Source: Candidatus Latescibacterota bacterium
Lineage (GTDB): Bacteria; Latescibacterota; UBA2968
DNA: 63,082 nucleotides
NCBI GenBank assembly: GCA_022821275.1
Contig: JAJEDY010000025.1
Location: forward strand, 1-63,082
Direction: 5' to 3'
Made by a program: the position numbers and the translations under genes. This document shows positions 2,285-2,820 of the stretch, one piece after another; the first letter of the stretch is position 1, and each line of letters opens with the position of its first letter. The notes beneath the pieces were generated by a model, which saw only the letters and a list, made by a program, of their open reading frames with translations, was not told where the DNA came from and did no database searches.

Positions 2285-2302
2285 GTTACAAAGCGAAAAA
2301 GA

Positions 2303-2342
2303 AAACAGCCGTCGAGGTTCAGGTCTCGGCGGCTGTTTTTTT
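2303..2342. terminator. Bidirectional rho-independent terminator
   Basis: AACAGCCG at 2304-2311 pairs with CGGCTGTT at 2329-2336, extended inward by TCGAG/CTCGG, and is followed by a run of T on the plus strand. The minus side begins with AAAAA. It lies between the convergent aldolase and ArsC genes and can serve both. Confidence 0.85.
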
Positions 2343-2691
2343 AGTCGAGAAGTTCATGTATGGCTTCTGAGGGACGGGCAATGACTGCACGATCTCCGCG
2401 AATGCACACGGGGCGATTCATGACTTCGGGGTGTTCTGTGAGCAAGCCGACGAGGGCGTCGGGCGTGTTGTAGTCATCCATGTCGCGCCCCAGTTTTTCG
2501 AATGAACTGGGGTGAATCAGGTCTTTGGGTTCACCGGGCAGGAGCGCGAGAAATTTTCTCAAGTCCTGTTCGCTCAGCGGTGTTTTCAAGTATTCAATCA
2601 CGTCGAACTCGACGTTGCCAGCGCGCAATATGTCCATTGCGCCATTGGATTTGCTTCAGTTGGGGTTGTGGTAGATGGTGATTTTTGACAT
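2341..2691 (-). CDS. ArsC/YfgD-family thiol reductase with in-frame TGA at the catalytic cysteine (candidate selenoprotein)
   Basis: Read through one TGA, this gives a 116-residue ArsC-family protein, the normal family length. The start is the ATG at 2691, with AAAAGGAG eight bases upstream. The N-terminus reads MSKITIYHNPN-(TGA)-SKS, where known arsenate reductases have IYHNPxCSKS. The TGA (2656-2658, codon 12) therefore sits exactly on the catalytic Cys. The rest is intact: VIEYLKTPLSEQDLR, DLIHPSSFEKLG and the phosphate-binding NRPVCIRGDRAVIARPSE. A hairpin matching the bacterial SECIS rule follows the TGA. Selenocysteine is known in some metagenomic ArsC-like proteins (established knowledge); here it is inferred. 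The alternatives are a nonsense mutation or sequencing error, giving a 98-residue fragment from 2637. No selA, selB or selC is in the window. Confidence 0.75.
2623..2642 (-). promoter_or_regulatory. Candidate bacterial SECIS element
   Basis: On the minus strand GCGCAAT (2642-2636) pairs perfectly with ATTGCGC (2629-2623) around the six-base loop GGACAT. The loop starts 20 bases after the TGA and opens with GG. The published bSECIS rule asks for a stem-loop with a G among the first two loop bases, 16-37 bases from the UGA. An outer CCA/TGG pair may extend the stem. Confidence 0.7.
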
Positions 2692-2820
2692 GTTAAATCT
2701 CCTTTTGCGGTGAAGGGCATCTCAATAGGAAGTATAAATGTCAGGATTTTTGGGGTCAAGGGAAAGTTAGGGGTTGACGAACGGCGGTTGTCATTGCGGC
2801 ACGCTGTTGAGCCGCAATCC

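Follow-up and report, generated by a model that had tools for sequence, protein, structure and literature searches.

The locus described here raises the question of whether a TGA codon at the catalytic position of an ArsC-like gene is read as selenocysteine (Sec) or marks a decayed gene, and what kind of reductase the gene would encode. The window, that is, the whole stretch of DNA that was analysed, comprises 63,082 nucleotides of contig JAJEDY010000025.1 (assembly GCA_022821275.1) from a Candidatus Latescibacterota bacterium. A preliminary description made from these letters had favoured recoding over decay and had suggested a Sec-dependent arsenate or thiol reductase that would be new or nearly so. 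Recoding is strongly supported by the TGA and full frames of the orthologues, the Sec machinery of the genome, the bacterial SECIS rule and covariation in the stem. On this comparative evidence the gene very probably encodes a selenoprotein, an ArsC-fold reductase in which UGA codon 12 is read as Sec.

The Gene and Its Transcript Signals

The features of the locus are collected in Table 1. The full-length ArsC frame proposed earlier was confirmed on the minus strand, and its only in-frame stop is the TGA at the catalytic position, in the context YHNPN-U-SKS. An internal ORF of 98 residues (2341-2637) begins at the ATG of codon 19. This codon was rejected as the real start, being ATG, CTG, ATA or CAG among the orthologues, and the truncated product is therefore unlikely to be the product of the gene. 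Automatic annotation of the Sec-ArsC clade likely shows a truncated ORF of this kind only. The AGGAG before the ATG and the strong terminator right after the TAA (10 pairs, a mismatch and 4 pairs, followed by a T-rich tail) suggest that the gene is probably transcribed on its own. No neighbours are conserved between genera; those that recur do so inside one genus or in a few close pairs. A conserved operon around the gene was accordingly rejected.

Table 1. Features of the Sec-ArsC locus (positions in the window)
Feature	Positions	Strand	Remarks
CDS of predicted Sec-containing ArsC-family protein	2341..2691	(-)	116 residues; ATG 2691-2689, TAA 2343-2341
TGA codon, predicted to be read as selenocysteine	2656..2658	(-)	position 12, replaces catalytic Cys12 of ArsC
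Putative ribosome-binding site AGGAG	2699..2703	(-)	7 nt before ATG; close orthologues have AGGAG too
Candidate sigma-70-like promoter TTGACC-17-TATACT	2731..2759	(-)	weak: 2 sites in region vs 1.1 expected
Predicted intrinsic terminator	2302..2339	(-)	fold -20.8 kcal/mol, z -6.3
SECIS-like hairpin	2620..2643	(-)	class-wide register: 2643-2634 pairs with 2629-2620
Second hairpin ACGTCG-AGTT-CGACGT	2600..2615	(-)	codons 27-30 nucleotide-identical in 22/22 orthologues

Conservation of the TGA Codon

Orthologues were searched for, with stops read through, in 60 genomes comprising the window's own and relatives. Including the window's own, 22 orthologues were found in the same class. All have full-length frames, and all 22 contain exactly one internal stop, a TGA at the same codon. 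The identity of the proteins is 79-97% in other genomes of the genus and about 60-72% in the rest of the class. It counts against recoding that no ArsC match was obtained from one assembly of the same genus (G010), which has SelB. The protein sequence is kept on both sides of the TGA, and the further disabling mutations that would have been expected of a decaying gene were found in none of the orthologues. These results bear on a rival origin of the TGA, as a genuine stop or a miscalled base in an ArsC gene that has decayed. Nothing beyond the stop itself speaks for such an origin, which is refuted by the same TGA in 22 assemblies and by purifying selection on both sides, and the probability left to it is negligible. 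Decay and sequencing error are excluded because the orthologues share the TGA, both flanks are conserved and the codon-19 start is not; a base-call error in particular is excluded because independent assemblies of relatives also carry TGA.

Homologues at a greater distance (32-45% identity) were also read, some from the same class and others from Proteobacteria, Actinomycetota and Bacillota; they have TGC or TGT at this position. Inside the orthologous clade, where all 22 orthologues have TGA, the alternation of Cys and TGA at codon 12 looked for in the preliminary description does not occur, which counts against recoding. The Sec forms constitute one clade in the tree (support 99/98). Some members of this clade have been deposited as Gemmatimonadetes, including assemblies with isolate names starting with SI, a prefix which we take to stand for Saanich Inlet. 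Several assemblies deposited as Gemmatimonadetes or as unclassified Latescibacterota have contigs identical to those of genomes grouped in the window's class (L051-L054, L057-L058).

Selenocysteine Machinery

All four Sec genes, selA, selB, selC (tRNA-Sec) and selD, are present in the genome, which has 5.66 Mb and is 97.5% complete. selA (584 bits) adjoins selB (389 bits) on contig C71, and on contig C84 tRNA-Sec comes immediately after selD (374 bits; G000, locus L127, about 484-1530). The SelD protein is also predicted to contain Sec, with an in-frame TGA (...QLVSCGG-UGA-ASKLDP...) and a SECIS-like hairpin with a GGU loop, so that Sec decoding would be needed for Sec synthesis itself. SelB was found in every genome with a Sec-ArsC gene; in two, G004 and G024, it is represented solely by fragments lying at the ends of contigs. 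Since SelB occurs throughout the class, its co-occurrence is consistent with Sec decoding and was rejected as a discriminating test inside the class. Decoding of the UGA by another route, such as Trp-type readthrough or a reassigned code, is formally conceivable and very improbable. The position is that of the family's catalytic Cys, Sec machinery and SECIS are present, and UGA still serves as a normal stop in the genome, selD being one gene that ends with it.

The SECIS-Like Hairpin

The published bacterial SECIS (bSECIS) rule calls for a G in the first two loop positions, a loop 16-37 nt after the UGA, a stem of 4-16 bp and an MFE <= -7.5 (PMC13188914). In the window a perfect 7-bp stem (GCGCAAT/ATTGCGC, 2642-2623) encloses the loop GGACAT (2635-2630), which starts 20 nt after the TGA, exactly as had been described; at -13.0 kcal/mol the window sequence satisfies the rule as claimed. 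The SECIS-like hairpin as a whole (2620-2643) spans +12 to +36, which is the spacing needed by bacterial SelB. Taken alone, this hairpin is modestly better than those of synonymous shuffles (p about 0.1), and Rfam gave no credible match in the region. The evidence for a SECIS hairpin comes from the set of orthologues and not from the single window sequence. The rule is passed by each of the 20 distinct sequences from orthologues, where synonymous codon shuffles would lead one to expect 9.4; among the 75 Cys homologues it is passed by 30, with 25.3 expected. In the 14 representatives compared, the stem shared by the class joins columns 16-22 to 33-39 and 24-25 to 30-31, and 4 pairs show two-sided changes, a level of covariation reached by 0 of 500 shuffles. 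With the second hairpin included, 90% of cells are paired; sliding the partners leaves no more than 47%. The exact stem drawn earlier is complete only in the window's own genus, and its top two pairs form in only 3 of the 14 representatives.

From these features we infer the following course of Sec insertion. When the ribosome reaches the UGA of codon 12, SelB carrying Sec-tRNA-Sec would bind the hairpin, whose start lies about 12 nt further downstream. Insertion of Sec would then yield a reductase of 116 residues that has the ArsC (thioredoxin-like) fold and contains HNPN-U-SKS.

A Second, Invariant Hairpin

A second hairpin with a perfect 6-bp stem and an AGTT loop lies +40 to +56 after the UGA. 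It is 16 nt long and nearly invariant, and all six pairs form in 14/14 representatives. Its 14 central bases do not differ in any of the 22 orthologues; they consist of codons 27-30 (GTCGAGTTCGAC; GTC GAG TTC GAC) plus the opening two bases of codon 31. In this gene a shared amino acid typically goes with a shared codon in only 40-50% of cases, and the codons in question are not simply those that the gene prefers (mean frequencies 0.37, 0.44, 0.57 and 0.65). Synonymous identity is clearly raised in one further stretch, codons 6-9. The invariant motif is absent from this position in the Cys homologues, and RNAalifold predicts the second hairpin along with the SECIS hairpin.

The second hairpin was rejected as the SECIS itself, its loop lying 46 nt after the TGA and outside the published 16-37 nt. 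A search of 47 genomes of the class recovered the 14-nt motif GTCGAGTTCGACGT in all 22 Sec-ArsC genes and as scattered single copies. Ten copies were read in context, four of them from f2 genomes that share one locus and the others unrelated, and none follows an in-frame TGA of a selenoprotein-like gene. These ten copies look accidental, and on their evidence GTCGAGTTCGACGT was rejected as a general recoding or binding motif. On the simplest reading the second hairpin may be part of an extended recoding element, although covariation cannot support this because the hairpin hardly varies. A fuller proposal combines a two-hairpin recoding element under strong selection at the nucleotide level with a protein that forms a separate, His60-type branch of ArsC and is not an arsenate reductase; there the second stem-loop may help SelB-ribosome engagement or pausing. 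Taken as a whole, this combination is unlikely. The invariant hairpin makes it testable whether bacterial recoding elements extend past the classical SECIS.

Protein Family and Possible Substrates

The protein belongs to the ArsC family, as had been proposed, and the UxxS motif (U12-S-K-S15) lies inside the ArsC domain (PF03960, 40.9 bits, above the cut-off of 24). The AlphaFold model has a pLDDT of 90.8, and the best Foldseek matches are the ArsC structures 3rdw and 3f0i (TM about 0.85). The score against the Spx/MgsR model TIGR01617 is 39.3 bits, below the cut-off of 75.05, and the motif is UxxS and not the CxxC switch. Roles of the active-site residues of ArsC have been listed in PMC5593903, where Arg60 is among those required for arsenic resistance. 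In alignment A1 the equivalent of Arg60 is His in 14/14 Sec representatives and Arg in 19/19 Cys homologues, and because this change holds throughout the Sec clade, arsenate reduction is not shown.

A true glutaredoxin-linked arsenate reductase of the R773 ArsC type, with Cys12 replaced by Sec and the resulting arsenite exported or methylated, is rather unlikely. The closest named families and structures are indeed ArsC arsenate reductases, the equivalents of His8, Asn9, Ser15, Arg94, Arg107 and Pro108 are kept in the Sec clade, and all of these but Pro108 were scored as invariant in alignment A1, as was position 12 apart from the exchange of Cys for Sec. One plain glutaredoxin-like gene is present in the genome, and ArsC proteins mutated at Arg60 remain able to fold and have given crystal structures with As (1sk0, 1sk1). 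Against this stand the His at the Arg60 position, a score of 83.1 bits for the equivalog TIGR00014, arsenate reductase (glutaredoxin), which is below its cut-off of 106.05, and the genomic context: the gene stands alone, ars genes are missing from its surroundings and its neighbourhood is not conserved between genera, and the genome contains no match to the Acr3 pump, the arsenite-disposal partner covered by the search, and no glutathione synthetase above the cut-off.

The loss of Arg60 and the lack of arsenic genes among those found fit a general thiol or selenol reductase or a peroxide scavenger of the YffB/Grx-like kind that does not act on arsenate. YffB has been cited as a glutathione-dependent thiol reductase (PMC5593903), and the fold is common to YffB (1rw1, TM 0.80) and the glutaredoxins. 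However, Arg94 and Arg107 of the oxyanion site are invariant in the Sec clade, an indication that the substrate is an anion or the transition state resembles an oxyanion, and a role of the YffB/Grx-like kind has an even chance of being correct. Given the His in place of Arg60 and the lack of Acr3, of a full-score glutathione synthetase and of conserved neighbours, the protein is best called an ArsC-fold Sec reductase of unproven substrate, for which the chances of a substrate other than arsenate appear about evenly balanced. In such a reductase the Sec selenol would attack the oxidised substrate, and a separate thiol donor would regenerate Sec, since the protein has only UxxS and no CxxC-type partner. 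The substrate might be arsenate bound in an altered pocket, or another oxyanion, a selenenyl compound or a disulfide. The fixed change from Arg60 to His that accompanies Sec gives a testable hypothesis on the substrate.

Comparison with Known Systems

Sec-containing ArsC proteins have been known since 2005, when 'Arsenate reductase, UxxS' was reported as a new selenoprotein family with 14 sequences from the Sargasso Sea metagenome (PMC1088965). The Global Ocean Sampling (GOS) study of 2008 listed 77 sequences of ArsC 1 (UxxS) and described ArsC 2 as UxxC (PMC2398784). Reviews of 2022 and 2026 include the UxxS Sec arsenate reductase with MBT3519430.1 as the example (PMC9312934, PMC13188914), a protein that may belong to the Gemmatimonadetes-named set of the clade described here. 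UxxS Sec ArsC thus already has its place among the recognised selenoprotein families, and the earlier expectation of a new kind of protein does not hold. No test of its function has been recorded, and the 2026 review regards the functions of bioinformatically identified selenoproteins as largely uncharacterised (PMC13188914). Three publications were found that name both Latescibacteria and selenocysteine, and judging by title and abstract none of them is about the Sec-ArsC protein. The window gene is a new, well-supported branch of the known kind, and it adds a Sec-ArsC clade, spread over a class of uncultured bacteria, in which UGA and SECIS are conserved.

A second ArsC/Spx-like gene with an in-frame TGA occurs in the same genome (G000, contig C32:71153-71476, plus strand; locus L126, 1654-2007). 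It has a UxxC motif (WNR-U-SSC) and a SECIS-like hairpin. The TGA is present in most same-genus assemblies, and some more distant relatives are without the stop. UxxC genes of the 'ArsC_rel_Se_1' family (NF041106) with an in-frame TGA were found above the curated cut-off in twelve other genomes of the class (L159-L170).

The nearest known system is the Sec arsenate reductase UxxS (COG1393/TIGR00014), with which the window protein shares the ArsC family, Sec for the catalytic Cys, the UxxS motif and a downstream bacterial SECIS; no difference from it was demonstrated, the published Sargasso and GOS sequences having been compared by description only. The Sec 'arsenate reductase-like' UxxC proteins (NF041106; GOS ArsC 2) are also a Sec ArsC/Spx-like family, to which the gene on contig C32 is related, but they have UxxC in place of UxxS and form a separate branch closer to Spx/ArsC-related proteins. 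ArsC of E. coli plasmid R773 (1i9d, 1jzw), 3rdw and 3f0i have the same fold (TM 0.82-0.85), the HxNPx(C/U)xxS loop, Arg94 and Arg107; compared with these, the window protein has Sec for Cys12, His for Arg60 and no ars operon. The Spx regulators (1z3e, 7f75) share the overall fold, whereas the window protein has UxxS rather than CxxC and scores far below the Spx family cut-offs.
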